Positions 4,115 through 38,260 of a DNA stretch of 40,969 nucleotides are shown here, one piece after another. A program made the translations under genes and the position numbers. Source of the DNA: Bacillota bacterium (GTDB lineage Bacteria > Bacillota > Clostridia > Lachnospirales > Lachnospiraceae); the NCBI GenBank assembly GCA_029226935.1, contig JAQXYZ010000067.1, forward strand, positions 1 to 40,969. The letters run 5' to 3'. The notes beneath the pieces were generated by a model. That model saw nothing but the letters and a program-made list of their open reading frames with translations. It had not been told where the DNA came from and ran no database searches. Positions within the stretch are counted from its first letter, which is position 1; each line of letters starts with the position of its first letter.

Positions 4115-4181
4115 GGGGTATAGCAAAAAACTATATAATGTATTGGGGGGGTTACAAGTAGTATAATAGCATACCCCCAAT
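4115..4181. other. Structured intergenic segment with G- and C-tracts
   Basis: The 346-bp gap 3904-4249 holds the GH13 promoter, the ftsH terminator and this segment, and no gene that I can see. ATTGGGGG (4142-4149) can pair with CCCCCAAT (4174-4181). Alternatively GGGGTAT (4115-4121) can pair with ATACCCC (4171-4177), so the two pairings compete for the same C-tract. A run of seven G (4145-4151) is included. No function is assigned. Confidence 0.4.
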
Positions 4182-4249
4182 TTTGCGTAAATACCCACGA
4201 TTCACAAATATTACAATTTCATTACCTCATTTTTGTGCATTTTTAACAA

Positions 4250-6088
4250 TTATCCTTCTGAAACTACTTCTGTCAAAGCATCCTTCTGATTAAACAAACC
4301 TTCAAATTCTTCTCTTCCAATCTTTTCTTTCTCAAGAAGTAAAGCGGCACATTTGTGAAGAACCTCCATATTTTGAAGAATAATGTCCTTTGCCTTTGCA
4401 TAGCAGTCATCTATAATGCTCTTAACTTCCCTGTCGATTTCACCGGAAACCAGTTCACTATGGCTTTTGGTATGTGCCAGATCTCTGCCGATAAATACCT
4501 CATCATCGTCACTGTTATAATTGATTACACCAATATTCTCTGACATCCCATATCTGGTTACCATATCCCTTGCTGCCTTTGTTGCTTTCTTGATATCACT
4601 GGACGCTCCGGTGGTGATATCACTGAAAATAATTTCCTCTGCAATTCTTCCACCCAGAGATACCATAATATCCTGCAACATCCTGCCTTTGGTAATAAAC
4701 ATATCATCATTTTCAGGAAGAGGCATGGTATAACCTGCTGCGCCAAGCCCTGTTGGGATAATAGAAACTGTATAAACCGGTCCTACATCAGGCAGTACAT
4801 GGAATAAAATTGCATGACCTGCCTCATGGTAAGCAGTAATTTTCTTTTCCTTATCTGTGATAATACGGCTCTTTTTCTCCGAACCAATTCCCACCTTGAT
4901 AAATGCCTTTTTAATATCCTCCTGCATGACAAAGGCTCTGTCATCCTTTGCTGCCACAATAGATGCCTCATTCAAAAGATTTTCAAGATCCGCTCCTGTA
5001 AATCCTGCTGTAGTCTGGGCAATCTGCTTTAAATCAACATCCTCCGCCAACGGCTTATTTTTTGCATGCACCTTGAGAATATCTTCTCTTCCACCTACAT
5101 CCGGGCGATTCACACTGATCTTTCGGTCAAAACGTCCCGGACGCATGATTGCAGGGTCAAGAATGTCTACACGGTTGGTAGCAGCCAGCACTATAATACC
5201 CTCATTTACTCCAAAGCCATCCATCTCAACCAAAAGCTGGTTCAAAGTCTGCTCTCTCTCATCGTGTCCGCCACCCATACCTGTACCACGTCGCCTTGCC
5301 ACTGCGTCAATTTCATCAATAAACACAATACAGGGCGAATGTTTTTTTGCTTCTTCAAACAGATCTCGTACTCTGGAGGCACCTACACCTACAAACATTT
5401 CAACAAAATCCGAACCGGAAATGCTGAAGAACGGAACACCTGCTTCCCCGGCAATCGCTTTGGCAAGCAGGGTCTTACCGGTACCGGGAGCACCCTCCAA
5501 AAGCACACCCTTAGGAATTCTGGCTCCCACTCTGGTAAACTTGGCGGGATCTTTTAAGAATTCAACAATTTCTTCCAGCTCTTCCTTTTCCTCTTTCAGA
5601 CCTGCTACATCTTTTAATGTAATCTTTCCATCTCCCATGGAAAGCTTTGCGCGGCTCTTTCCAAAATTCATCATCTTACTGCTGCCGCCGGCATTCTGGC
5701 TGTTGATGATCACAAAGAAAAATACCATTGCAATGATAGCAAGCAGAACCGGGAATACACTGGTAAGGAACCAGCTTTCCTCCTCTACTTTCTTTACATC
5801 CGGGTCCAGACCGTATGAGATGAGGAGCTGCTCCATCTCAGACACATCCGTCACATAAAGGGTCTTGCCGGAGCCCTCTTTAAAGACAAAATCCACTTCT
5901 CCGGTTGGGGTCTCTCTGCTCGGAGAGATACTTGCATATACAATATTTCCCTCTTCCAAATCCTGTATTAGCTTTCCTCTGGAATATTCCACCTGATTAT
6001 TATCCAGAAGACTTGGAATTATCAGTAGCGCTAAAAACAGGAATATGATCACAAAATACGCACTATTTCCACGATTTTTCTTGTTCAA
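4250..6088 (-). CDS. ftsH: ATP-dependent zinc metalloprotease FtsH
   Basis: A membrane-anchored AAA+ protease of 612 residues that degrades misfolded membrane proteins and short-lived regulators. There are two membrane segments (about 9-27 and 107-127) flanking a small extracytoplasmic domain. The AAA module has Walker A GAPGTGKT (199-206), Walker B VFIDEID (255-261) and the second region of homology ending RPGRFDR. The zinc site is HEAGH (421-425). The start is a TTG with GAGG 8 bases upstream; no ATG fits better. It is the last gene of tilS-hpt-ftsH, 39 bp after hpt, an order conserved across Bacillota. Length and motifs are normal. Confidence 0.97.
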
Positions 6089-15402: not shown

Positions 15403-16833
15403 TTAATATGCTCTTCCCCAATAAACCATTTTCTTTGCAGGTTTACCGCAATAAACACAGGTATCTGACAGACATTCCTGCTTAAAAGGCATGCATCGGC
15501 TGGTAACTGCCATGTTTTCCTTAATTGCCTCTTCACAGGCGGTCTCACCACACCACATTGCTTTTACAAAGCCTGTCTTTTCTGCAAAGATTTTTTCAAA
15601 TTCTTCTCTGTTGGTTGCTGTATAGGTATGGGACTCCAGATGCTTCTTTGCCCTCTCCAGCATATCTGCCTGAATCTGAACCAAAAGCTCTGCAACAGTC
15701 TCCTCCAGCTTATCTATCTCTACTTCAATCTTTTCTCTGGTATCACGGCGGCAGATCACACACTTGCCTGCTTCAATATCCTTAGGGCCGATTTCCACAC
15801 GCATGGGAATACCGCGCATCTCCTGCTCAGAAAATTTCCATCCGGGGCTCTTGTCACTGTCATCTACCTTTACGCGGAAGTTGCTGAGTCTGTCGCGCAG
15901 CTCATATGCCTTATCCAATACCCCTTCCTTTTTCTGCTGAATCGGAATAATCATTACCTGAGTAGGTGCAATCTTAGGCGGAAGCACCAGACCTGAATCA
16001 TCTCCATGTACCATGATGATTGCACCAATAATTCTGGTGGACATTCCCCATGAAGTCTGGTGAACATATTTCAGCTGATTGTCTTTATCCGTAAACTGAA
16101 TACCGAAGGCTCTTGCAAATCCATCTCCAAAGTTATGGCTGGTTCCGGACTGAAGCGCTTTTCCGTCATGCATCAGTGCCTCAATTGTATAAGTAGCTTC
16201 TGCTCCCGCAAATTTTTCCTTGTCTGTTTTGCGTCCCTTTACAACAGGAATTGCAAGCACTTCCTCACAGAAATCAGCATATACATTCAGCATCTGCTCT
16301 GTTCTCTCCTCTGCCTGTTCCGCTGTTGCATGAGCGGTATGACCCTCCTGCCATAAAAACTCTCTGGAGCGAAGGAATGGTCTTGTCTCCTTTTCCCAAC
16401 GTACAACGCTGCACCACTGATTATAAACCTTGGGCAGATCGCGGTAAGAGTGAATGTCTCCTTTATAAAAATCACAGAACAGGGTCTCTGAGGTAGGTCT
16501 TACACACATCCGCTCCTGAAGAGGGTTCAGTCCTCCGTGCGTTACCCATGCAACCTCCGGTGCAAAACCTTCCACGTGATCCTTTTCCTTTTGCAGAAGA
16601 CTTTCGGGAATGAACATAGGCATATACACATTTTCTACACCTGTTGCCTTAAATCTCTCATCAAGCTGCTTTTGAATATTTTCCCAGATAGCATATCCCG
16701 CAGGTTTAATTACCATACATCCTTTTACGTTGGAATAATCAATCAATTCTGCTTTTTTTACTACATCCGTATACCATTGTGCAAAATCTTCACTCATGGA
16801 TGTGATTGCTTCCACCAATTTCTTTTCAGCCAT
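15403..16833 (-). CDS. proS: Prolyl-tRNA synthetase (short, eukaryote/archaeal-like type)
   Basis: A class II synthetase of 476 residues that charges tRNA-Pro. It is the short form without the bacterial editing insertion. Class II motifs are visible: motif 2 around [13 protein letters not shown] and [20 protein letters not shown], and motif 3 near the ATP site. The anticodon-binding domain and a C-terminal Cys-rich zinc-type region ([15 protein letters not shown]) follow. I start at the ATG at 16833 (MAEKKLVEA), with AAGGT upstream; the in-frame TTG at 16863 has no ribosome site. A proline-specific T-box leader precedes it. Confidence 0.95.
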
Positions 16834-16894
16834 TTTCTTTACCTTACCTTTCTTATTGTTCAATATCTATTTGACACAGGAAATTTCAAAAGTT

Positions 16895-17226
16895 TCCCTG
16901 CCATATGAAAAGGGCGGCACGCTTCTCCGACCCTGTAAAGGGACCGGAATCCGGCGGTACCACCCTAATTAATGCACGAAACATCCTCTTATCTTACCGT
17001 TATCGCCGGTGCTACGCTGTACTTTCATACAGAACTCCAAGGTAGGTTCCACATATTCCGCCCGGGAATCTTTCAGCTCTTTCCAGACTTGTCTAATCAT
17101 ACAAGGTTCTGAAAAGGATTCCCTCTCTGATGACTTCTATATATGTACTATTCCTCTTCTGCGCCATGTCACTTCTTCTTACTTATAGGAAGAATTATTC
17201 AATTCAGCGATACTTGGAAGTATCGT
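16895..17226 (-). promoter_or_regulatory. T-box riboswitch, proline-specific, upstream of proS
   Basis: On the minus strand the leader carries the T-box core GGGTGGTACCGCC (16953-16965), with competing CCGGTCCCT/AGGGTCGG pairings after it and T-rich sequence beyond. The probable specifier is CCT (17044-17046), a proline codon, in the usual GAA-NNN-A context. An AGAGAGG segment of stem I lies near 17125. Uncharged tRNA-Pro should stabilise the antiterminator and allow proS-cca-cotS transcription. The exact terminator fold was not resolved by eye. Confidence 0.9.
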
Positions 17227-27033: not shown

Positions 27034-28284
27034 TTATTCCAACGTATAGCTGTTTAAATATTTTTCCTGCTCAGGGGTAAGCACATCAATTTCTTTCCCT
27101 AAGAATGCCAGCTTTCTCCTTGCAACGTCCTGATCAACTTCCTTAGGAACATCAATCAGCTTTTCTTTCAGTTCACTGCCATGTTCCACCAGATATTTTG
27201 CGGAAAGTGCCTGAATAGCAAAGCTCATATCCATGATTTCAGCAGGATGTCCATCCCCGGCTGCAAGATTCACGAGCCTTCCCTCTGCCAGCACGAAAAT
27301 CCACTGACCTGTAGGCAGCTTGTATCCCATAATATTTTTTCTCTGCTCTCTGGTTTCCACTGCAATTTCGCGCAGTCTTGCCATATCAATTTCGCAGTCA
27401 AAGTGTCCCGCATTACAGAGAATTGCGCCGTCCTTCATTACCTTGAAGTCTTCTTCATCAATTACCTTATCACAGCCTGTAACAGTCACAAAGAAATCAC
27501 CAACCTTGGCTGCTTCATTCATGGGCATAACCTCAAAACCATCCATCACAGCTTCAATCGCCTTGATAGGATCAATTTCCGTTACGATGACCCTCGCGCC
27601 AAGACCCTTCGCTCTCATGGCAGTTCCCTTACCGCACCATCCGTATCCTGCTACCACAACTCTCTTTCCTGCCACAATCAGATTCGTGGTACGGTTAATT
27701 CCATCCCATACGGACTGACCTGTTCCGTAACGATTATCAAATAAGTGCTTGCAGTCCGCATTGTTTACGCGAACCATAGGAAATTTCAATTCCCCTGCCC
27801 TGTTCATTGCTTCCAGACGGATAATACCGGTAGTGGTTTCCTCGCATCCGCCGATAATATTAGGAATCAATTCCGGCATCTTGGTGTGAACCATATTTAC
27901 CAGATCTCCCCCATCATCAATAATAATGTTAGGACCGGCTTCAAGGACATGGCGGATATGGGTATCATACTCTTCCGGTGTACAGTCATACCAAGCATGA
28001 ACTTCAAGCCCTGCCTTTACCAATGCTGCTGCCACATCATCCTGTGTGGAAAGGGGATTGGAACCGGTTACATACATTTCTGCACCGCCTGCCTTCAACA
28101 CCAGGCAAAGGTATGCGGTCTTAGCCTCCAGATGCACCGACAATGCAATCTTCTTTCCGGCAAAGGGTTTGGTCTTGGCAAATTCCTCCTCCAAGGTGCG
28201 GAGCAGATCGCAATTCCTCTTTACCCACTCAATTTTGCGCTCGCCGGATTCGGCTAAATTAATGTCTCTGATTTCACTGTTCAT
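27034..28284 (-). CDS. ahcY: Adenosylhomocysteinase, archaeal-type clade (S-adenosyl- or S-inosyl-homocysteine hydrolase)
   Basis: A 416-residue NAD-dependent hydrolase that splits S-adenosylhomocysteine (or its deaminated form) to homocysteine and nucleoside. Seen: HLEAKTA (51-57), GSNPLSTQDD, EETTTG (E149), K179 and D183/N184 in ADCKHLFDNRYG, and the NAD site GYGWCGKGTA (213-222). It carries YGTGQSVWDG where classical enzymes have YGCRES, and lacks the C-terminal K/Y extension. Both features are typical of archaeal and Thermotoga enzymes. One member of that group, from Methanocaldococcus jannaschii, prefers S-inosylhomocysteine. The ATG at 28284 (GGAGGG upstream) overlaps the mtaD stop by 11 bp, so translation is coupled to the deaminase. 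An open frame continues 57 codons upstream but lies inside mtaD. Confidence 0.92.
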   Translation of the reverse strand: MNSEIRDINLAESGERKIEWVKRNCDLLRTLEEEFAKTKPFAGKKIALSVHLEAKTAYLCLVLKAGGAEMYVTGSNPLSTQDDVAAALVKAGLEVHAWYDCTPEEYDTHIRHVLEAGPNIIIDDGGDLVNMVHTKMPELIPNIIGGCEETTTGIIRLEAMNRAGELKFPMVRVNNADCKHLFDNRYGTGQSVWDGINRTTNLIVAGKRVVVAGYGWCGKGTAMRAKGLGARVIVTEIDPIKAIEAVMDGFEVMPMNEAAKVGDFFVTVTGCDKVIDEEDFKVMKDGAILCNAGHFDCEIDMARLREIAVETREQRKNIMGYKLPTGQWIFVLAEGRLVNLAAGDGHPAEIMDMSFAIQALSAKYLVEHGSELKEKLIDVPKEVDQDVARRKLAFLGKEIDVLTPEQEKYLNSYTLE

Positions 28285-29590
28285 TTTCTTCCCTCCACTT
28301 TTTATCCAGACCCATACGGGTTGTAATCTCATTAATCTTACTGTATACCAGCTCCTCGTCCAGTGTAAGCACCCTGCGGTTTTCCATAGTAATTTTACCA
28401 TCAATGATAACGGTCTCCACCTCTGAGCCATTGGCAGAATAGGAAAGTCCCGCAATCAGATTATTTCTGGGAGTCAGGGAAGGGGTATTTAAATTAAGGA
28501 TTGCAATATCTGCCTTCTTTCCTGCTTCCAGAGATCCTGTTTCTTTCTCAAGTCCAAGCGCTCTTGCACCGTTGATGGTTGCAATCCGAAATCCCTCTCT
28601 TGCACTGACACATTGAGGTGTCTTCTGAACCCCTTTATGGATCAAGGTTAAAAGACTTAGTTCATGAAACATATTCAGACTGTTATTGCTGGCAGCCCCA
28701 TCGGTCCCCAGACACACATTGATTCCCTTCTTTAGCATTGCCGGAACCGGAGCAAAACCGTTTCCCAGCTTCATATTGCTGGCAGGATTGGTCACTACAC
28801 TGACATTTTTATTTTTGAGAATTTCCATATCGCTTTCGGTAATCTGTACACAGTGTGCCGCAATTGCCGGAACATCAAAAAGTCCGTTCCTGTCTGCCAT
28901 CTCAATGGGAGAACAGCCGTATTTTTCCCTAATCTGCTGTATCTCACTTTCGCTTTCCGAAAGATGCACATGAATTCCCATATGGTTTTTCTTAGCTTCT
29001 TCCGACACAATGCGCATAAAACCATCATCACAAGTATATGGCGCATGAGGTCCTAACAGGAAGGTAAGCCTGTCACAGTCAGCAGCCGCATCCCGCTCCT
29101 CATAAGCCTGTCTTAATCTCATCTGCCCTGCTTCATCATTTCCGCTGCCCACCAGCCCACGGCAGATGACGGCACGCATGCCGGATTCCTTCACTGCTCT
29201 TGTTGTCTGATGGATGTTCATCTGCATATCATTAAAGCAGGTAGTGCCGCTTTTCATCATCTCAATAATGGCAAGGCATGCTCCCCAGTAGGTATCCTCA
29301 TCTGTCATCTGCTGCTCAATCGGATCAATGGTTCCAAACAGCCAGTCCATAAAGCTTAAATCGTCTGCCACATTTCTCATAAAGGACATATAAGAGTGAG
29401 TGTGGCAGTTAATCAGACCGGGGATTGCCAGCCTGTCCTTTCCATCAATCACCTTATCTGCCACAAATCCTTCCGGCATCCTTCCAACTGAAGCGATTCT
29501 GCTGCCTTCAATATAAATATCTGTTTCCTTAACGACATCCTTTTCACCTTCCGGCAGGATTGCCAGAATGTTTTTTAGTAAAATTCCCAT
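28274..29590 (-). CDS. mtaD: 5'-methylthioadenosine / S-adenosylhomocysteine deaminase
   Basis: A 438-residue amidohydrolase that deaminates the adenine ring of MTA and SAH to the inosyl compounds. Metal-site motifs are complete: NCHTHSY early, HVHLSES in the middle, AAHCVQ and then LGTDGAASNN with the final Asp. The active-site fold is the metal-dependent TIM barrel with flanking beta-sandwich strands. I start at the ATG at 29590 (GGAG 6-7 bases upstream); a GTG two codons earlier is the alternative. It overlaps ahcY by 11 bp and follows the dehydrogenase gene closely. Confidence 0.93.
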   Translation of the reverse strand: MGILLKNILAILPEGEKDVVKETDIYIEGSRIASVGRMPEGFVADKVIDGKDRLAIPGLINCHTHSYMSFMRNVADDLSFMDWLFGTIDPIEQQMTDEDTYWGACLAIIEMMKSGTTCFNDMQMNIHQTTRAVKESGMRAVICRGLVGSGNDEAGQMRLRQAYEERDAAADCDRLTFLLGPHAPYTCDDGFMRIVSEEAKKNHMGIHVHLSESESEIQQIREKYGCSPIEMADRNGLFDVPAIAAHCVQITESDMEILKNKNVSVVTNPASNMKLGNGFAPVPAMLKKGINVCLGTDGAASNNSLNMFHELSLLTLIHKGVQKTPQCVSAREGFRIATINGARALGLEKETGSLEAGKKADIAILNLNTPSLTPRNNLIAGLSYSANGSEVETVIIDGKITMENRRVLTLDEELVYSKINEITTRMGLDKKWREENEQ

Positions 29591-29611
29591 AAACACTCCA
29601 TTTCTATAACA

Positions 29612-30571
29612 CTACAAATTGACAATATTTCTGTTCTCGCCTTTCAGAAAGGCTTCAATATTTTTGCAGGTTTCGGAAACGCACCTGTTTCTGGCTTCCG
29701 TACTTGCCCACGCAAGATGGGGTGTAATGATCAGCTTTCCACTGTCCATAATCTCGCTTAAAGGATTGCTTGCCTTCATTGGCTCCGTACCGGTAACATC
29801 CAGTCCTGCGCCTGCAATCAGATTTTCTGTTAAAGCAGTGTATAAGTCCGCATCATTTACCACCGGTCCTCTTGCTACATTGATCAGGATTGCACTTTTC
29901 TTCATTTTCTTCAGTGCATCCAGATTAATTAAACCTCTGGTCTTTTCACTTAACGGGCAGTGCAGGGATAAGAAATCCGATTCCTGAAGGAGCGTATCAA
30001 AATCTACCCTGTCATATTCTGTGCAGGTGCTGTTCCCTGATGCGGAGTAGAAAATTACCCTGCATCCAAATGCTTTGGCAATTTCTGCCACCCTTTTTCC
30101 AATATTGCCCATACCCACGATTCCCCAGGTTTTGCCTGCAAGCTCAGTAAAAGGAAGATCAAAATTTGAAAAACGTTCCTGAGCGGCATAAGTGCCGGAT
30201 TTTACATAATCATCATAGTGGCGAAGCTTTTCAAGTACATAAAAGCACAATGCAAAGGTATGCTGTGCCACTGCATCGGTAGAATAACCTACGATATTTG
30301 CAACCTTGATTCCTCTGTTCTTGCAATAGTTAAGATCAACATTGTCGTAACCTGTAGCAAATTCACAAATCAGCTTCACATCAGGCGCATCCTTTAAGGT
30401 TTCTTCGTTCAAAGGAACCTTGTTTGCAACAATAATTTCTGCATCTTTTATCTTTTCTTTCACATCCAAAGCGGTAGTGTTGGGATAAACAACTGTCTCT
30501 CCCAGCTTTTCGATCCCATCCAGCGGAATATCCCGCCCTACACTGTTTCTCTCCAAAATCACAATCTTCAT
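29612..30571 (-). CDS. D-2-hydroxyacid dehydrogenase (glycerate dehydrogenase/hydroxypyruvate reductase-like)
   Basis: A 319-residue NAD-dependent dehydrogenase. The substrate domain flanks a Rossmann domain with GIVGMGNIGKRVAEIAKAFG. The catalytic triad is visible: Arg in NVARGPVV, Glu in GLDVTGTEP and His in TPHLAWAS. Likely substrates are 2-keto acids such as hydroxypyruvate or glyoxylate; sequence alone does not decide. AAGGAG lies 11 bases before the ATG. It sits 55 bp after the ECF gene and 21 bp before mtaD on the same strand, with no terminator, so it belongs to the same run. Its link to SAH recycling is unclear. Confidence 0.85.
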   Translation of the reverse strand: MKIVILERNSVGRDIPLDGIEKLGETVVYPNTTALDVKEKIKDAEIIVANKVPLNEETLKDAPDVKLICEFATGYDNVDLNYCKNRGIKVANIVGYSTDAVAQHTFALCFYVLEKLRHYDDYVKSGTYAAQERFSNFDLPFTELAGKTWGIVGMGNIGKRVAEIAKAFGCRVIFYSASGNSTCTEYDRVDFDTLLQESDFLSLHCPLSEKTRGLINLDALKKMKKSAILINVARGPVVNDADLYTALTENLIAGAGLDVTGTEPMKASNPLSEIMDSGKLIITPHLAWASTEARNRCVSETCKNIEAFLKGENRNIVNL

Positions 30572-30626
30572 TTGTTTTTGATCTCCTTATTTTCGCTCTT
30601 TCCGGTTAAAATTCAATCAAAATATA

Positions 30627-31148
30627 TTATACATAATCCATATGATTTTGAACAGCCTTTTTCATTCGGACAAGCAACAGATACAGGGGCTTTCCAAGCA
30701 CTAGCATCAGAATAAAATTGCATATTCCATGCCATACGTCCCATGGAAGTCCGCTGATCCAATAAGTAAGTGCATAGGAAAGATTAATTGGAATATAGAC
30801 AACTGCAAACAGGGAACCAAAAATAAGCCCGAATCCTCCCGACACTATTGCCCAAACTATGAATTCTTCTTTTATCAGTTTCTTCAAAAGCAGCGTAACC
30901 AGACATAGAAGCGGCCACACATATAAATAGCTGATCCACCAGGTTCCAAATCCCCATTGAATCAGTTCAAACAGATTAAAAACTGTAACTGTCAGAAAGG
31001 TTTCCTTTCCAAACACCAGGGTATAAAGAATTACCAAAAGAGAAACCAGTTCCACATTTGGCAAAAATTCAAGAGCCACCTTAGACACATAAAGGATAGC
31101 ACTTAAAAGCGCTATCCTTGTAAGTTTATATATCGACATTCTTTTCAT
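30627..31148 (-). CDS. ECF transporter S component (probably B12-related)
   Basis: A small, very hydrophobic protein of 173 residues with about five membrane helices, in keeping with substrate-binding S components of energy-coupling-factor transporters. The N-terminal RIALLSAILYVSKVALEF opening and the short basic tail fit that family. The energising EcfA/EcfT parts are not in the window and would be shared. The gene begins 9 bp after a DUF4430 gene and lies behind a cobalamin riboswitch. A substrate such as cobalamin, a precursor or a lower-ligand base is therefore probable. GGTAGG precedes the ATG. Confidence 0.8.
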   Translation of the reverse strand: MKRMSIYKLTRIALLSAILYVSKVALEFLPNVELVSLLVILYTLVFGKETFLTVTVFNLFELIQWGFGTWWISYLYVWPLLCLVTLLLKKLIKEEFIVWAIVSGGFGLIFGSLFAVVYIPINLSYALTYWISGLPWDVWHGICNFILMLVLGKPLYLLLVRMKKAVQNHMDYV

Positions 31149-31157
31149 TTTGCAGAC

Positions 31158-31556
31158 CTACCATCCCTGCTTCAAAGTAAAGGTATACACATCACCATCC
31201 TGTAAGGGAACTTCATCCGCACCTACAGTACTGGATTCACCATTTACAATGACGCACCACCAATACTGGTTGTCCATGTCTTCCTGCATACCGTTAAAGC
31301 CTGTAATATAGATTCCGTAATCGGATTCCTGCCACTCACAGCCCTCAAAGGTTCTTAAAAATTCTCCCAGATACTCTGCATCTGACTTACAATCTGTTGT
31401 TTCAGAGTAATTGTCTCTTTCAGAAATGACTTCTACCTGAAACGTTTTCATTCCGTCCATTGTAGCACGGTGGTTCAGTACGCCTGCAACAACACCAATC
31501 ACAATTATAATTGCTGCAAAGACGGACACAAGGGTAATCTTTTGTTTTTTGGTCAT
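31158..31556 (-). CDS. Membrane-anchored DUF4430 (transcobalamin-C-like) protein
   Basis: A 132-residue protein with an N-terminal membrane anchor (about 8-26) and an external domain that matches DUF4430, the small beta domain also found at the C-terminus of transcobalamin and intrinsic factor. Key features are GIYITGFNGM, YWWCVIVNGE and the closing DGDVYTFTL, typical of that fold. GAAAGGAG precedes the ATG. It is the first gene after a cobalamin riboswitch and is followed directly by an ECF S component, so it may capture a corrinoid at the cell surface and pass it to the transporter. The binding role is inference. Confidence 0.82.
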   Translation of the reverse strand: MTKKQKITLVSVFAAIIIVIGVVAGVLNHRATMDGMKTFQVEVISERDNYSETTDCKSDAEYLGEFLRTFEGCEWQESDYGIYITGFNGMQEDMDNQYWWCVIVNGESSTVGADEVPLQDGDVYTFTLKQGW

Positions 31557-31564
31557 AATTTTCT

Positions 31565-31590
31565 CCTTTCTTTCCTACCAAAGAAACAGG
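31565..31590 (-). promoter_or_regulatory. Hairpin at the ribosome site after the cobalamin riboswitch
   Basis: TTTCTTT (31567-31573) pairs with AAAGAAA (31580-31586), extended by CC/GG. On the minus RNA its 3' arm reaches into the AAAGGAG of the DUF4430 gene. It is a good candidate for the translational expression platform of the riboswitch. Confidence 0.55.
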
Positions 31591-31603
31591 TTTAAACGCT
31601 TAT

Positions 31604-31775
31604 GGCAAGTCTTAGGACTTCGCTTCATCTGATTCATCTGCCTTCTCACAGTTTTAATCCTGCAATGGCTGATCTTTACGATCATAGATGGATCATCCAC
31701 ATTACCTCAGAGTAAGCTGTCAATGATTCTCACATTGTTCCTTATTAAACCGATGAAAACCGGTACCATAACCGC
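31604..31775 (-). promoter_or_regulatory. Cobalamin riboswitch
   Basis: On the minus strand the leader holds the conserved parts in order: TAATAAGGAA followed by GTGAGAATC and ACAGC; the B12 box GCCATTG (31663-31669; consensus GCCACTG); then GTGAGAAGGC; and finally GATGAAGCGAAGTCC with AAGACTTGCC. These match the cobalamin aptamer core. Binding of a cobalamin should reduce expression of the genes downstream (DUF4430, ECF S component and probably the dehydrogenase-mtaD-ahcY genes). Confidence 0.87.
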
Positions 31776-31804
31776 GGCGGTCATCCGCCTGTTACCAGTT
31801 TTCT

Positions 31805-31946: not shown

Positions 31947-33260
31947 ATGAATATTGTTTTACTTTCCGGCGGTTCCGGCAAACGTCTGTGGCCGCTCTCA
32001 AACGACATTCGTTCTAAGCAGTTTATTAAAATTTTTAAAACAGAAGACGGTACCTATGAATCGATGGTACAGCGCGTATACCGCCAGATTCGCAAGGTGG
32101 ATGCAGATGCAACCGTAACCATTGCCACCTCCAAGACGCAGGTTTCCGCTATCAATAACCAGCTCGGAGAAGGGGTAGGAATTTCCGTGGAACCCTGCAG
32201 AAGAGATACCTTCCCTGCCATTGCACTTGCAACTGCTTATCTCCATGATGTACAGGGTGTTTCCGAAGATGAATCCGTTGTCGTCTGTCCTGTAGACCCT
32301 TATGTGGAGGATGATTATTTTGAAAAGCTGAAAGAGCTCAGTGAGCAGGCCGATAAGGGAGAAGCCAATCTGGTTCTGATGGGGATTGAACCCACCTATC
32401 CCAGTGAAAAGTACGGCTATATCATTCCTGAAAGCCACGATGAAATCAGTAAGGTTTCCACCTTCAAGGAAAAACCTGATGTGGAAACAGCCAAAAGCTA
32501 CCTGGCCCAGGGAGCCCTCTGGAACGGCGGTGTTTTTGCCTACAAACTAAAATATGTACTAAAGAAAGCGCATGAGCTCATCGATTTTACAGATTATCAG
32601 GATTTATTTGCGAAATATGATACCCTTACCAAGATCAGTTTTGACTATGCTGTGGTTGAAAAGGAAGACAAAATCCAGGTTATGCGCTTTGCTGGTCAGT
32701 GGAAGGATCTGGGCACCTGGAATACGCTTACGGAAGCCATGGAAGAAGCAAATGTAGGCGAAGCCATGATGAATGAGAAATGTGAAAATGTCCATATTAT
32801 CAATGAGCTTGGTGTTCCAATCCTGGCAATGGGTCTGAATGACGTAGTGATTTCTGCCAGTCCTGACGGAATTCTGGTTTCCGATAAGGAACAGTCCAGC
32901 TACATTAAACCCTTTGTAGACAAGCTGGACCAGCAGATTATGTTTGCCGAAAAGTCTTGGGGAAGTTTCCGGGTATTAGATGTAGAAGAAGAAAGCATGA
33001 CCATTAAAGTTGTTTTAAATCCCGGTCACAGGATGAATTATCACAGTCACAAGAACAGGGATGAAGTATGGGTGGTCACTGCGGGAAGCGGTCACACGAT
33101 TGTAGACGGAATGGAGCAGGAGGTTTCTCCGGGTGATGTGATTACCATGGAGGCAGGATGCCGCCATACCGTAATTGCCGATACAGAATTAAAATTGATT
33201 GAAGTTCAGCTGGGCAAGGAGATCAGTGTCCATGACAAACAAAAATATGCACTTGAATAA
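31947..33260 (+). CDS. manC: Mannose-1-phosphate guanylyltransferase with C-terminal cupin (ManC type)
   Basis: A 437-residue enzyme that makes GDP-mannose from mannose-1-phosphate and GTP for surface glycans. The nucleotidyltransferase domain starts with VLLSGGSGKRLWPLS and has the sugar-binding FKEKP motif near 170. Residues about 325-437 form a cupin with NYHSHKNRDEVW and PGDV, the type II phosphomannose isomerase domain, which may add isomerase activity. GAGAGG precedes the ATG. A separate type I phosphomannose isomerase gene overlaps its end, so the cupin may be redundant or regulatory. Confidence 0.9.
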   Translation: MNIVLLSGGSGKRLWPLSNDIRSKQFIKIFKTEDGTYESMVQRVYRQIRKVDADATVTIATSKTQVSAINNQLGEGVGISVEPCRRDTFPAIALATAYLHDVQGVSEDESVVVCPVDPYVEDDYFEKLKELSEQADKGEANLVLMGIEPTYPSEKYGYIIPESHDEISKVSTFKEKPDVETAKSYLAQGALWNGGVFAYKLKYVLKKAHELIDFTDYQDLFAKYDTLTKISFDYAVVEKEDKIQVMRFAGQWKDLGTWNTLTEAMEEANVGEAMMNEKCENVHIINELGVPILAMGLNDVVISASPDGILVSDKEQSSYIKPFVDKLDQQIMFAEKSWGSFRVLDVEEESMTIKVVLNPGHRMNYHSHKNRDEVWVVTAGSGHTIVDGMEQEVSPGDVITMEAGCRHTVIADTELKLIEVQLGKEISVHDKQKYALE

Positions 33261-34236
33261 ACCTTTCTTATTAAAGCCTGCCAGTAAGGACTATTTATGG
33301 GGTGGGAGACGCTTAAAGGATGATTTTGCCAAGGAAACAGATTTATCGCCACTGGCAGAGACCTGGGAGTGTTCCACTCATCCTGATGGCCCAAGCATCA
33401 TTGCAAGCGGGAAGCACACAGGAAAAACACTTACAGACGTTTTGAAAAAGCATCCCGAATATATAGGAACGCATCCTGAAAACAAAAATGAACTGCCAAT
33501 CCTGATTAAATTTATTGATGCCAAAAATGACTTGTCCGTTCAGGTTCATCCTGATGATGCTTATGCCAAAGTACATGAGAACGGCTCTCTTGGGAAGACC
33601 GAAATGTGGTATGTGCTGGATGCCGCTGAAGACGCAAAACTTGTTTATGGTCTGCAACATGACATGGATAAGGAAAGTATGAAAAAAAGCATTGAGCAGG
33701 GGACCATCGAAAAATATCTGCAAAAAGTTCCTATCAGAAAAGATGATGTTTTCTATATTGAAGCCGGAACCATTCACGCAATCGGAGCAGGCGCACTTGT
33801 GGCAGAAGTACAGGAAAATTCCAATTTGACTTACCGCATGTACGATTATGACCGTGTGGATAAAAACGGAATGAAGCGGGCGCTCCATGTGGATAAAGCG
33901 CTTGATGTTGCCAATCTGAAAAGAAGCGCTGCTCCCAGACAGGCACTTCGTGTCCTGAAATACCGCCCGGGCTGCGCAACAGAATTTTTGTGCCGCTGTA
34001 AATATTTTCAGGTGGAAAGAATGCTGGTAAACACAGAAAGAATTCGTGAAATGGTCAGTTTCCAGACAACGGGGCTTTCCTTTCAGGTATTATTATGTTT
34101 AAATGGCTGCGGTACAATTTCCTATGAAGAGGACGAAATGCTCCGCTTCTTTAAGGGAGACTGTATTTTCGTCCCTGCCAATTCAATTTCCATGAAAATA
34201 CACGGTACTGCCCAGTTTTTAAAGGTAAGCTGTTAA
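33232..34236 (+). CDS. manA: Mannose-6-phosphate isomerase, class I
   Basis: A zinc-dependent isomerase of 334 residues that interconverts fructose-6-phosphate and mannose-6-phosphate and so feeds GDP-mannose synthesis. The metal site is visible in LSVQVHPDD and KTEMWYVL, with the later His in AGTIHAIG; the YRMYDYDR segment is typical. I start at the ATG at 33232, with AAGGAG about 10 bases upstream inside manC. The two genes overlap by 29 bp, which points to translational coupling. The upstream extension of the frame lies fully within manC. Confidence 0.92.
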   Translation: MTNKNMHLNKPFLLKPASKDYLWGGRRLKDDFAKETDLSPLAETWECSTHPDGPSIIASGKHTGKTLTDVLKKHPEYIGTHPENKNELPILIKFIDAKNDLSVQVHPDDAYAKVHENGSLGKTEMWYVLDAAEDAKLVYGLQHDMDKESMKKSIEQGTIEKYLQKVPIRKDDVFYIEAGTIHAIGAGALVAEVQENSNLTYRMYDYDRVDKNGMKRALHVDKALDVANLKRSAAPRQALRVLKYRPGCATEFLCRCKYFQVERMLVNTERIREMVSFQTTGLSFQVLLCLNGCGTISYEEDEMLRFFKGDCIFVPANSISMKIHGTAQFLKVSC

Positions 34237-34277: not shown

Positions 34278-34574
34278 AATTTAAAACACCTAAACTGTTG
34301 ACGCGGAGATAAAGGTGATGATGCTCCTACAGAGAGCCCGGAGTGCTGAGATCGGGTGGAAAACAAGTCATCAAATGGACCGCTGAGGGTGCAGTGAAAA
34401 ACAGAGCGTAGTATTTTATCTGTCCAGTATTCTGCAACGTAAGGCATACGTCAGTTGCCGGAGATATGATGGTATCTCATTAAGCGTACAGCATTTGCTG
34501 TAAATCAAGGTGGCACCGCGGATAGTTTATATTCGTCCTTGACAGAAATAATTTCTGTTGAGGGCGTTTTTTTA
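34278..34574 (+). promoter_or_regulatory. T-box riboswitch, tryptophan-specific
   Basis: The leader carries the T-box core AAGGTGGCACCGCGG (34507-34521) and a clear terminator: CGTCCT..ACAGAA pairs with TTCTGT..AGGGCG (34534-34566), then seven T. The probable specifier is TGG (34376-34378), the tryptophan codon, in A-rich context before ACC. It has an AGAGAG segment of stem I near 34332. Uncharged tRNA-Trp should permit transcription of the chimeric trpE'-'trpA gene. The leader looks complete although most of the trp operon it would serve is gone. Confidence 0.93.
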
Positions 34575-34624: not shown

Positions 34625-35977
34625 ATGATCCAACCTGAACTTAACTTACTTAAAGAGCTTAAAAAACAAGATGAATACAAGACGGCTCCTGTCAGTATGG
34701 AAATTTTTTCGGACATTAGAACTCCCATTGAGGTTCTTAAAATTCTGAAAAATGTTTCCAGCCACTGCTATCTTTTAGAGTCCGTTTCCGACCATGAAAA
34801 ATGGGGGCGCTACACCTTTTTAGGATATGAACCCAGCTTGGAGATTACATGCCAGAATGGACATATGAAGGTAGGCTCACTTTCCTTTGAGACCAATGAC
34901 CCCGGCAAATATATACGTCAGGTCATCGATGAGCATAAAAGTCCTCGTTTTTCCTATCTTCCTCCTTTTACCGGCGGTCTGGTTGGATACTTTTCTTACG
35001 ACTATCTGAAGTATGCAGAGCCTTCCTTAAACCTGAACGCTGCCGATACCGAAGGGTTTAAGGATGTAGATTTGATGCTTTTTGACAGGGTAATTGCTTT
35101 TGATAACTTTAAGCAGAAAATCATCCTGATTGTCAATATTCATCTGGACAATCTGGATACGGAATACAACAGGGCTGTTCTTGAGCTTAAGCAAATGGCG
35201 GAGCTGTTGAGAAACGGTAAAGAAGCCTTTGCAAATGGCAAAGCATTTATTCCTTTTATTACCTGTGGTGACCCTGATCTTGACACTACCAAAAAAATTG
35301 TCCATAGTGCCGTCCGGAACGGTGCAGACTTAATTGAACTTGGTATTCCCTTTTCCGATCCCACCGCAGAAGGTCCCGTTATTCAGGGAGCTAATCTGCG
35401 AGCATTGTCAGGCGGAGTAACCACCGATAAAATTTTTGATATGGTAAGAGAGCTCCGTAAAGATATTACTATTCCCATGGTATTCATGACTTACGCCAAT
35501 GTAGTATTTTCTTACGATGCGGAAAAATTTATCAGCACCTGTGCAGAGATTGGTATTGACGGACTGATTCTTCCCGATCTCCCTTTTGAGGAAAAGGGTG
35601 AATTTGATGAGACCTGTAAGAAGTATGGTGTGGATCTGATTTCCCTGATTGCTCCCACCTCTGCAAACCGTGTTGCCATGATTGCAAAGGAAGCGCGAGG
35701 CTTTATTTACATTGTATCCAGCCTTGGCGTGACCGGTGTAAGAAGTGAAATTAATACTGACATTTCATCTCTCGTTAAACTGGTTCGTGAAAATTCTTCT
35801 GTTCCCTGCGCTGTAGGGTTTGGCATTTCTACCCCGGAGCAGGCGGCTAAGATGGCAGGAATTTCCGATGGTGCCATTGTAGGCTCTGCAATTATCAAGC
35901 TGATTGCACAGTATGGCAGGGATGCCGCAGAACCGGTTGGGAAATATATACAAAGTATGAAGGCTGTGTTACTATAG
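34625..35977 (+). CDS. Chimeric TrpE(N-terminal domain)-TrpA protein
   Basis: A 450-residue in-frame fusion. Residues 1-197 are the N-terminal domain of anthranilate synthase component I, including the Trp-feedback motif LLES (50-53) and GRYTFLGYEP. The catalytic chorismate-binding domain of TrpE is absent. From about residue 199 the sequence is the tryptophan synthase alpha subunit, nearly entire: EAFANGKAFIPFITCGDPD, then LIELGIPFSDPTAEGP (E238 matches catalytic E49, E249 the D60 position), and VGFGIS and GSAII at the phosphate site. The joint (about 35210-35237) contains an imperfect NGK-x-AF repeat, hinting at recombination between short similar sequences. trpG, trpD, trpC, trpF and trpB are missing from the locus. 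Expression is under the tryptophan T-box. Anthranilate synthase activity is excluded here; indole-releasing TrpA activity is possible but lacks a local TrpB. Confidence 0.93.
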   Translation: MIQPELNLLKELKKQDEYKTAPVSMEIFSDIRTPIEVLKILKNVSSHCYLLESVSDHEKWGRYTFLGYEPSLEITCQNGHMKVGSLSFETNDPGKYIRQVIDEHKSPRFSYLPPFTGGLVGYFSYDYLKYAEPSLNLNAADTEGFKDVDLMLFDRVIAFDNFKQKIILIVNIHLDNLDTEYNRAVLELKQMAELLRNGKEAFANGKAFIPFITCGDPDLDTTKKIVHSAVRNGADLIELGIPFSDPTAEGPVIQGANLRALSGGVTTDKIFDMVRELRKDITIPMVFMTYANVVFSYDAEKFISTCAEIGIDGLILPDLPFEEKGEFDETCKKYGVDLISLIAPTSANRVAMIAKEARGFIYIVSSLGVTGVRSEINTDISSLVKLVRENSSVPCAVGFGISTPEQAAKMAGISDGAIVGSAIIKLIAQYGRDAAEPVGKYIQSMKAVLL

Positions 35978-36006: not shown

Positions 36007-36858
36007 ATGGAACTTACATCTACTACTAGTCAGTCTGTACTTAAAAATTTATGGAATAAGGACACCCACACTTTTTCATCCGATATGCTGAAGCTGACCG
36101 CCATCATTACTATGATGATTGATCATATCGGTGCAGGAATACTGGAATATTTACTATATACAGATATTTCTGCTTCTATTCCATATAATACCTTATTAAT
36201 TATTTATTATATTAATATGGTCTTACGCCTTATCGGGCGTATTGCCTTTCCGATTTTCTGCTTTTTGCTTGTGCAGGGCTTTCTTCATACCAGAAGCAGA
36301 ATAAAATATGCAAGAAATTTTCTAATTTTCGCTTTAATATCGGAGCTCCCTTTTGATTTTTGTTTTTTTGGAGGCATTGATTGGTCCCATCAAAATGTAT
36401 TTTTGACGCTTTGTATTGGACTGCTTACTCTTTGGGCACTGGAAGTTATCCAAAATAAGGAAATGCATATTGCTCTAAAGACTATGGTCTCTTTGCTGGC
36501 TATAGCTATAAGCCTGACAGTTGCTGCGTTTCTCAAAACAAACTATACATGGACGGGCGTTCTGCTGATTTTAGGACTGTATTTCTTTCGTGAAAAACTT
36601 GCCCTGCAATGCAGTATTCCGTTTATTGTATTTTTGATTTCCTCGATAATTTCCAATCTTGCCTATGGTACTTTGCAGGAATCCGTCTTACTTTGCCTGT
36701 CATCTAAGTGGACACTCTTTATACCTGCTCTCATGATTTATCATTGTAATGGGAAGCGGTATATGCAAAAGGGCAAGTATTTCTTCTATACTTTTTATCC
36801 AGTTCATTTAGCTGTTCTTTATGTTATTCAAATCATACTGACTAACATCCTGCAATAA
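36007..36858 (+). CDS. TraX-family membrane protein
   Basis: A 283-residue protein with about eight hydrophobic helices. Family landmarks are DMLKLTAIITMMIDHIG at the start, RLIGRIAFPIFCFLLVQGF, HQNVFLTL, and YFFYTFYPVHLAVLY at the end. TraX of the F plasmid acetylates pilin. Chromosomal members in Bacillota are thought to be membrane acyltransferases acting on surface molecules, but the substrate is unknown. The ribosome site is weak (GGACGGAAACG). It lies 29 bp after the trp fusion and could share its transcript, and it ends at a strong two-way terminator. Confidence 0.88.
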   Translation: MELTSTTSQSVLKNLWNKDTHTFSSDMLKLTAIITMMIDHIGAGILEYLLYTDISASIPYNTLLIIYYINMVLRLIGRIAFPIFCFLLVQGFLHTRSRIKYARNFLIFALISELPFDFCFFGGIDWSHQNVFLTLCIGLLTLWALEVIQNKEMHIALKTMVSLLAIAISLTVAAFLKTNYTWTGVLLILGLYFFREKLALQCSIPFIVFLISSIISNLAYGTLQESVLLCLSSKWTLFIPALMIYHCNGKRYMQKGKYFFYTFYPVHLAVLYVIQIILTNILQ

Positions 36859-36867
36859 TTTTAAACT

Positions 36868-36915
36868 AAAAAAAGCTCTCAAATACCAGCTTAAGGTATT
36901 TGAGAGCTTTTTCTT
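36868..36915. terminator. Bidirectional terminator between traX-like gene and pgi
   Basis: AAAGCTCTCAAATACC (36872-36887) and GGTATTTGAGAGCTTT (36895-36910) form a perfect 16-bp stem with a 7-base loop. There is an A-tract on the left and a T-tract on the right, so it serves both convergent genes. Confidence 0.95.
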
Positions 36916-38260
36916 ACAGTCTCTTAAGAAGTTCTTCTCTCTGTGCTTCATAACCGGGCTTGCCAAGAAGGGCAAACATATTCTTCTTGTAGCTTTCAAC
37001 ACCGGGCTGGTTGAAAGGATTTACACCCAGCAGGTATCCGCTGACACCACATGCAAACTCAAAGAAATAGAACAGCTGTCCTAAATAATATTCATTGACT
37101 TCAGGTACATTTACCATGAAGTTGGGAACCTGTCCGTCTGTATGAGCTAAGATAGTTCCGTTCATAGCACTCTTATTTACGAAATCAACGCTCTTACCTG
37201 CAAGATAGTTTAATCCGTCAAGGTCAACTGCTTCTTCCTGAAGAATGATTTCTTCTCTGCTTGTCTCAATATTAATTACGGTTTCAAACATATTTCTTGC
37301 ACCGTCCTGAATGAACTGACCCATGGAGTGCAAGTCTGTTGTAAGATCAACGCTTGCAGGGAAGATACCCTTCTGATCCTTGCCTTCACTTTCTCCGTAA
37401 AGCTGTTTCCACCATTCAGAAACATAATGAACGCTGGGTTCATAGTTTGCAAGGATTTCAATTGCCTTGCCCTTTCTGAGAAGAATGTTACGAAGTGCTG
37501 CATACTTGACAGCATCATTTTCTTCAAAAGGAGCTTCCATGGCAGCCTTGCGTCCTGCCTGAGCACCTTCCATCAGTTTGTCAATGTCGGCACCGCTTAC
37601 TGCAATGGGAAGTAATCCAACAGCGGTAAGAACGGAGAAACGTCCTCCTACATCATCGGGAACTACGAAGCTTTCGTATCCTTCTTCTGTAGCCAGATTC
37701 TTTAATGAACCTCTTGCCTTATCTGTGGTAGCATAAATTCTCTTTGCTGCTTCTGCTTTACCGTATTTCTTTTCCATCATTTCCTTAAATACACGGAATG
37801 CAATTGCAGGTTCTGTAGTTGTACCGGACTTACTGATCATATTGATAGAGAAATCTCTGTCACCAATCACATCCATTAAGTGTTTAATATAAGTAGAGCT
37901 GATAGAATTACCTACAAAATAAATTTCAGGTGTCTTTCTGATTTCTTTGCTTACTGTGTTGTAGAAGCTATGTCTTAAAAATTCAATAGCTGCTCTTGCT
38001 CCCAGATAGGAACCGCCAATACCAATTACCAGAAGCACTTCTGAATCGCTCTGGATCTTAGCTGCTGCCTTTTTAATTCTGGCAAACTCTTCCTTGTCAT
38101 AGTTTACAGGAAGATCAATCCATCCAAGAAAATCATTTCCCGCACCTGTCTTGGAAACCAATAAATCTTTTGCATCCATAGCAAGCTTCTTCATGGATTC
38201 TACTTCATGATCCTTGATGAAGGGAGCTGCTTTGGAATAATCAAATGTTACTTTGCTCAT
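36914..38260 (-). CDS. pgi: Glucose-6-phosphate isomerase
   Basis: A 448-residue glycolytic enzyme that interconverts glucose-6-phosphate and fructose-6-phosphate. It is of the short bacterial type. Signatures are clear: [32 protein letters not shown] and [16 protein letters not shown], with the catalytic Glu and His regions downstream and a C-terminal Lys-containing segment ([16 protein letters not shown]). AAAGGAG precedes the ATG. It is monocistronic, with its own promoter and the two-way terminator. Confidence 0.96.

Follow-up and report, generated by a model that had tools for sequence, protein, structure and literature searches.

An in-frame trpE'-'trpA chimera behind an intact tryptophan T-box, a probable young deletion relic of the native trp operon in a Lachnospiraceae genome

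Tryptophan is the commonest predicted auxotrophy of human gut bacteria, at 63.9% of HRGM genomes in the account given in PMC10689445, and the incomplete trp pathways of gut bacteria have been sorted into variants A1-A3 (PMC9026213). Naturally occurring fusions between trp genes have also been described, among them trpE-trpG and trpC-trpF (PMC2395257). The locus described here resembles the fusions in holding two trp genes in a single frame, and the gut variants in the partial or full loss of tryptophan synthesis. It lies in a contig of 40,969 nucleotides (JAQXYZ010000067.1, hereafter the window) from a genome of the family Lachnospiraceae, in which an earlier note, made from the letters alone, had recognized the N-terminal part of TrpE joined to most of TrpA.

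An open trpE'-'trpA reading frame at the native trp locus

The chimeric ORF (34625..35977, plus strand) is open from the ATG at 34625 to the stop at 35977 and encodes 450 amino acids. Its TrpE part (residues 1-198, 34625..35218, plus strand), the end of which was set by breakpoint fit, contains the Pfam domain Anth_synt_I_N (PF04715) at residues 30-167 (1.8e-28) and, as the earlier note had claimed, the LLES motif, which was found at residues 50-53. The TrpA part (35219..35977, plus strand) runs from native residue 5 to the stop, as delimited by profile matches, the alignment of relatives and the AlphaFold model. Residues 204-438 match Trp_syntA (PF00290) at 2.5e-88 and 295.8 bits against a cut-off of 27, covering profile positions 8-244 of 259. 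Under the NCBIfam models the chimera scored 285.5 bits with TIGR00262 (TrpA), above the cut-off of 102.35, and only 96.6 bits with TIGR00564 (TrpE), for which the cut-off is 517.7; neither Pfam nor NCBIfam searches detected the chorismate-binding catalytic domain PF00425 in the ORF. Among the relatives compared, the TrpE part had its highest identity to L007 (91%) and the TrpA part to G022 (92% over the matched stretch).

The catalytic glutamate of TrpA (Glu49 of Salmonella), also reported as kept in the note, is residue 238 of the chimera and is the same in 18 of 18 aligned rows. All 18 rows likewise have Glu at residue 249 (window 35369-35371), where Salmonella TrpA has the catalytic Asp60; judging by this alignment, the TrpA of the window's group is apparently a natural D60E enzyme. 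AlphaFold, run with an alignment of TrpA rows only, gave a pLDDT of at least 80 in 22 of the 25 ten-residue blocks of the TrpA half; the TrpE half was modelled without aligned rows, and its values (below 55 in 20 of 20 blocks) are uninformative.

The surroundings of the gene are those of a trp operon. When 13 genus loci were read gene by gene, eight proved to have the complete set of trp genes, seven in number and arranged EGDCFBA (G024, G003, G033, G016, G030, G011, G015, G019), preceded in every case by the same T-box; the other five comprise four decayed loci (G022, G001, G006, G021) and one on a cut contig (G017). In the window, the 2-hydroxyacid dehydrogenase gene identified by Pfam (29612..30571, minus strand) lies upstream of the chimera, and a TraX-family gene (36007..36858, plus strand) and a phosphoglucose isomerase (PGI) gene (36914..38260, minus strand) lie downstream; the dehydrogenase and PGI genes are neighbours of the trp locus in several relatives. 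L038 shows the same order with an operon in place: homologues of the four upstream window genes at 28274-31556, the seven trp genes (trpE from 3262, trpA to 9753), TraX and PGI. Among the 14 loci compared, L003, L009, L111 and L112 have both neighbours, the dehydrogenase on one flank and PGI on the opposite one; L002 and L004 conserve the PGI flank alone, and neither flank was matched in L005, L007, L113, L106, L114, L107 and L108, several of which are short stretches; L106 retains 81 bases of the PGI gene at its contig end. Two additional genes, encoding nucleotidyl-transferase and phosphomannose-isomerase domains, precede the T-box in the window (31947-34236). On gene order, the chimera is assigned to the native trp locus.

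Other regulatory RNAs were found elsewhere in the window. A cobalamin riboswitch (31587-31785, minus strand, 70.3 bits) lies ahead of small genes at 30627-31556, one of them with DUF4430, and a second T-box (16936-17170, minus strand; 83.6 bits, below the gathering score) lies ahead of a prolyl-tRNA synthetase gene (15403-16863).

Upstream of the chimera, the tryptophan T-box leader (RF00230; 34289..34543, plus strand) scored 93.5 bits in cmscan against a gathering score of 93. Its specifier, read by position in the Rfam alignment, is TGG at 34376-34378 (UGG, Trp), and a terminator hairpin at 34534-34566 (RNA fold, z -2.92) is followed by seven T, the whole element spanning 34534..34573 on the plus strand. 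The window leader was aligned with 16 others, 14 from genus members and two from the named relatives L005 and L007; of the alignment columns in which those 16 do not vary, it matches 116 of 116. Rows truncated at 360 bases, together with a gap in the L007 row, keep the number of such columns down. Score, specifier, invariant columns and terminator all agree with the description of this T-box as intact in the note. The T-box should still answer uncharged tRNA-Trp, so that tryptophan shortage probably switches on synthesis of the 450-residue protein.

Compared with nine intact operons (seven from genus members, two from named relatives), the stretch missing from the window amounts to 5067-5366 bp, about 5.1 kb. 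The open ORF, its two Pfam halves and the intact operons of relatives bear out the reading of the gene as an in-frame chimera left by loss of the operon's interior. The joint (TrpE ...RNG / KEAFANGKAF... TrpA) lies at 35217..35221 on the plus strand, between parental ends with 0-3 bases in common. The best breakpoint fit was at fusion nucleotides 593-595 against G024, G003, G033, G016, G030 and G011, and extended to nucleotide 596 or 597 against n7, n5 and G019. In eight relatives the parental ends had 0, 0, 0, 1, 1, 2, 2 and 3 bases in common, a count made without G033, whose letters there are those of G024.

Recombination between an imperfect repeat, NGKEAF and ANGKAF, had been proposed as the cause of the deletion. 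We rejected this mechanism because a crossover between repeats would not leave both copies, and both remain. In relatives, TrpA natively carries ANGKAF or AKGKAF. Another repeat, containing GCAAATGGC and with a copy flanking the joint on either side, likewise keeps both copies, and its position differs from that of the breakpoint. A mosaic origin, in which the TrpE and TrpA parts would come from different lineages, was suggested by their best identities (n7/L007 versus G022) and was unsupported by trees. Of five trees in which the parts were held together, four could not be rejected (TrpE set, p-AU 0.098 and 0.288; TrpA set, p-AU 0.248 and 0.116), and the fifth, with TrpA held together with G029 and G028, was borderline (p-AU 0.049).

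A match across both halves was found in none of the 36 other genus members, at none of 80 loci (the best 80 of 570 confirmed relatives), and not among the matches listed for 396 other family genomes, 309 of which had some match; these matches were ranked by score, so that a well-conserved one across the joint should have come high in the list. A candidate second fusion in L016 or L036, with a match over query 2-449, was dismissed, as trpE merely comes after trpA there. Searches of the literature, covering little of the subscription journals, found no trpE-trpA fusion. The chimera is unusual to see, yet it is a known kind of event.

Tryptophan synthesis in the host genome and constraint on the two halves

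The genome that contains the window (2.59 Mb in 161 contigs, 98.14% complete) gave a single TrpA match, which was the window itself. Profile searches of its contigs found no TrpE catalytic domain (Chorismate_bind, PF00425), no match to IGPS (TrpC), no match to Glycos_transf_3/TrpD and no true match to TrpB. The sole TrpB candidate, on contig C37, scored 23.6 bits against a cut-off of 392 and proved on reading its sequence to be a threonine-dehydratase-like ORF. In control genomes, TrpA, Chorismate_bind, IGPS, TrpD and TrpB were matched in 14 of 14, with TrpB above its cut-off in 13. Chorismate synthase is present in the window genome. The earlier note had made its forecast of tryptophan auxotrophy depend on these genes not lying elsewhere; with trpB, trpC, trpD and the TrpE catalytic domain all missing from so complete an assembly, and the control searches positive, the forecast holds and tryptophan auxotrophy is well predicted from gene content.

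Ten T-boxes were found in this genome. One of them, on contig C136, also reads UGG where the window leader has its specifier in the alignment; the gene behind it encodes an ABC binding protein with TrpX as its sole NCBIfam match (265 bits, under the cut-off of 390). Because a UGG T-box precedes a TrpX-like binding protein, the host cell probably imports tryptophan. The TrpP transporter was not found in the genome; with matches in only 2 of the 14 controls, this family is not one that every genome should have.

Two functional readings of the chimera had been put forward in the note, a free TrpA releasing indole and a TrpA attached to a Trp-sensing module, and both now appear unlikely. Indole-glycerol phosphate, the substrate for the former, cannot be made because TrpD and TrpC are missing, and there is no TrpB to activate TrpA; the efficiency of isolated maize TrpA is described as ~144,000-fold below that of the stand-alone enzyme BX1 (PMC12930369). 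As to the latter, the Trp pocket of Serratia TrpE is described as consisting of Ser40, Pro291, Met293, Val453 and Tyr455, and domain I as residues 1-57, 178-308 and 468-520 (PMC10464499). Serratia residues 170-512 align with 146-482 of a full-length relative, so that, by these alignment ranges alone, 291-455 falls beyond residue 198. Four of the five contacts map to the deleted part, and the LLES serine is the only one in the retained TrpE part. The TrpE half may still bind tryptophan weakly, by analogy with M. tuberculosis TrpE, because the N-terminal LLES-X10-S stretch is itself called a Trp-binding motif there (PMC6437058). As predicted from sequence, the TrpA half is without substrate or partner and the TrpE half has no active site and only part of the Trp pocket, and the chimera would have no function in tryptophan synthesis.

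Selection on the two parts was examined with a purpose-written two-ratio codon model, using 19 taxa for the TrpE part and 22 for the TrpA part; distant or gapped rows were left out, namely G010 from both sets and G002, G013 and G020 from the TrpE codon set. On the window branch omega was 0.049 versus 0.060 elsewhere for the TrpE part and 0.048 versus 0.057 for the TrpA part. An omega of 1 on this branch was rejected (2dlnL 43.4 for the TrpE part, 94.2 for the TrpA part); the two parts jointly support values of about 0.03-0.08, and omega 1 can have prevailed over at most about 2% of the branch (dlnL -1.81 at 2%, -2.96 at 3%). The TrpE part has 106 sites, and the TrpA part 137, that are invariant in the other rows; the window has changed at two sites in each part, and the other rows have 0-8 such changes in the TrpE part and 0-5 in the TrpA part. 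No relaxation of selection was seen on the window branch, part or most of which may predate the deletion. Since the neutral share is at most ~2%, an old inert relic is excluded under the codon model, which leaves a very recent deletion or halves still under constraint. We favour youth, because open chimeras are noticed only while young and because the protein has no evident work. Inert debris, which the note had listed as one option, is thus the favoured reading, with the qualifier that the debris must be very young or its halves still constrained.

Decay of the trp locus across the genus

Across 37 genus genomes, separate TrpE and TrpA were found in 21, the chimera in one, TrpA only in three (G022, G001, G006), a divergent TrpE only in G017, a TrpA tail only in G021, and no match to either in ten, of which seven are at least 90% complete. 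G022 has kept the T-box and trpGDCFBA, with trpE gutted and out of frame. In G001 and G006, trpD comes directly after the T-box and trpE and trpG are missing there. In G021 the T-box is internally shortened and stands ahead of a 68-aa trpD'-'trpA' ORF (L113, G021:C31, 4362-4568, minus strand), with a TrpD-like start and the last ~55 residues of TrpA as its end; we take this to be a second trp chimera in the genus, its TrpD part being assigned from reading the sequence. By gene content, then, at least 4 of the 36 other genus members show different forms of decay at the trp locus, and the window is one of several outcomes at one locus.

Further variants of trp genes were observed in relatives. 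L134 (G010:C28, 1012-2304) has a 430-aa trpE ORF in which ~60 residues are missing from the stretch linking the two domains; the frame is kept, and trpG and trpD follow. Trp-type T-boxes with AAATGGACC kept were also found before stand-alone trpB-like ORFs in L168 (G005:C30, reverse strand, 4121-4378 and on) and L169 (G017:C56, reverse strand, 2499-2794 and on). The trpB-like ORF of L168 scored 514.7 bits with TIGR00263, and the genome that carries it, G005, has no trpE or trpA match. Between the terminator and the trpB-like gene, both loci have a tiny ORF starting MLLTKRWRC, which might be a leader peptide.

Origin of the chimera and comparison with known systems

The chimera is very probably a remnant of the native trp operon, a young in-frame deletion relic and not a new enzyme. 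The ancestor would have had, at the same place, trpE-G-D-C-F-B-A controlled by a Trp T-box. One illegitimate deletion of ~5.1 kb, with near-zero homology at its ends, would have taken TrpE codon 199 through TrpA codon 4, the frame being kept by chance; that this was a single event is inferred. The cell would have lost tryptophan synthesis and would live on imported tryptophan, with the T-box still responsive and the chimera made under tryptophan scarcity. The chimera would be expected to erode, like the same locus elsewhere in the genus.

The reading frame, start, T-box and terminator are all undamaged, as one would also expect of a functioning gene, and this counts against reading the chimera as debris. 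If the chimera were selected, its TrpA half, possibly modulated by the TrpE half, might cleave indole-glycerol phosphate or bind a ligand, with the T-box causing it to be made when tryptophan is scarce. This would agree with the normal constraint on both halves along the window branch, the kept catalytic Glu and few changed invariant sites (2/137 in TrpA, 2/106 in TrpE), the T-box unchanged at all 116 invariant columns and the confident TrpA barrel of the AlphaFold model. We nevertheless consider it improbable: the genome has no TrpC or TrpD to provide the substrate and no TrpB, the isolated maize enzyme falls far below BX1, most of the Serratia Trp-pocket residues map to the deleted part, and no further joined match occurred in the genomes searched (for the family genomes, among the matches listed). 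The constraint, moreover, may be inherited from the intact operon, the branch being partly or mostly older than the deletion. That selection has retained the chimera as a T-box-controlled, TrpB-independent TrpA protein in a cell no longer able to make tryptophan, its TrpE half having acquired a new role such as binding a partner or an indole compound under tryptophan depletion, seems to us very improbable.

It is also very doubtful that the joint is an assembly artefact, produced by collapse of the operon or by mis-joining of two sequences in the 161-contig draft. The assembly is fragmented and a false joint would give just such pristine halves, but the 0-3 bases shared in eight relatives are too short for a k-mer assembler, the assembly has no copy elsewhere of the skipped trpB, trpC, trpD or TrpE catalytic domain, both flanks are the flanks of the trp locus in relatives, and the frame is exactly preserved. 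A narrower form of the deletion-relic explanation, not exclusive of it, is that the deletion is a strain-level polymorphism in an otherwise prototrophic species, the sequenced lineage being a transient auxotroph. A neutral branch share of at most ~2% fits a very recent event, and the species is represented by one genome; however, trpE/trpA loss is common in the genus (10 of 37 genomes without a match), so fixation is plausible too, and we hold to this narrower form only tentatively.

Taken as a young relic, the locus together with its relatives shows the loss of tryptophan synthesis in progress, with different deletions behind one T-box and two open chimeras. This decay series is a more useful result than the chimera alone, and sampling of strains could show how the operon dies, how long the T-box survives and whether in-frame debris is ever kept.

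Set against TrpE (TIGR00564, PF04715 plus PF00425), residues 1-198 of the chimera are an ordinary N-terminal part, with up to 91% identity to relatives and the LLES motif, but the whole PF00425 catalytic domain is gone. Set against TrpA (TIGR00262, PF00290), the chimera is alike over profile positions 8-244 of 259 and in its catalytic Glu, but the first four residues are replaced by half of TrpE and the genome is without TrpB. In the natural trp fusions described in PMC2395257 each partner keeps its catalytic domain, whereas here one partner is halved and the intervening steps are lost. G001 and G006 resemble variant A3 as described in PMC9026213, in which TrpEG is missing and the remainder is kept. 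The gut trp variants, as presented in PMC9026213 and PMC10689445, are scored by the presence or absence of enzymes, whereas at this locus the deletion joint and the surviving T-box are themselves visible.
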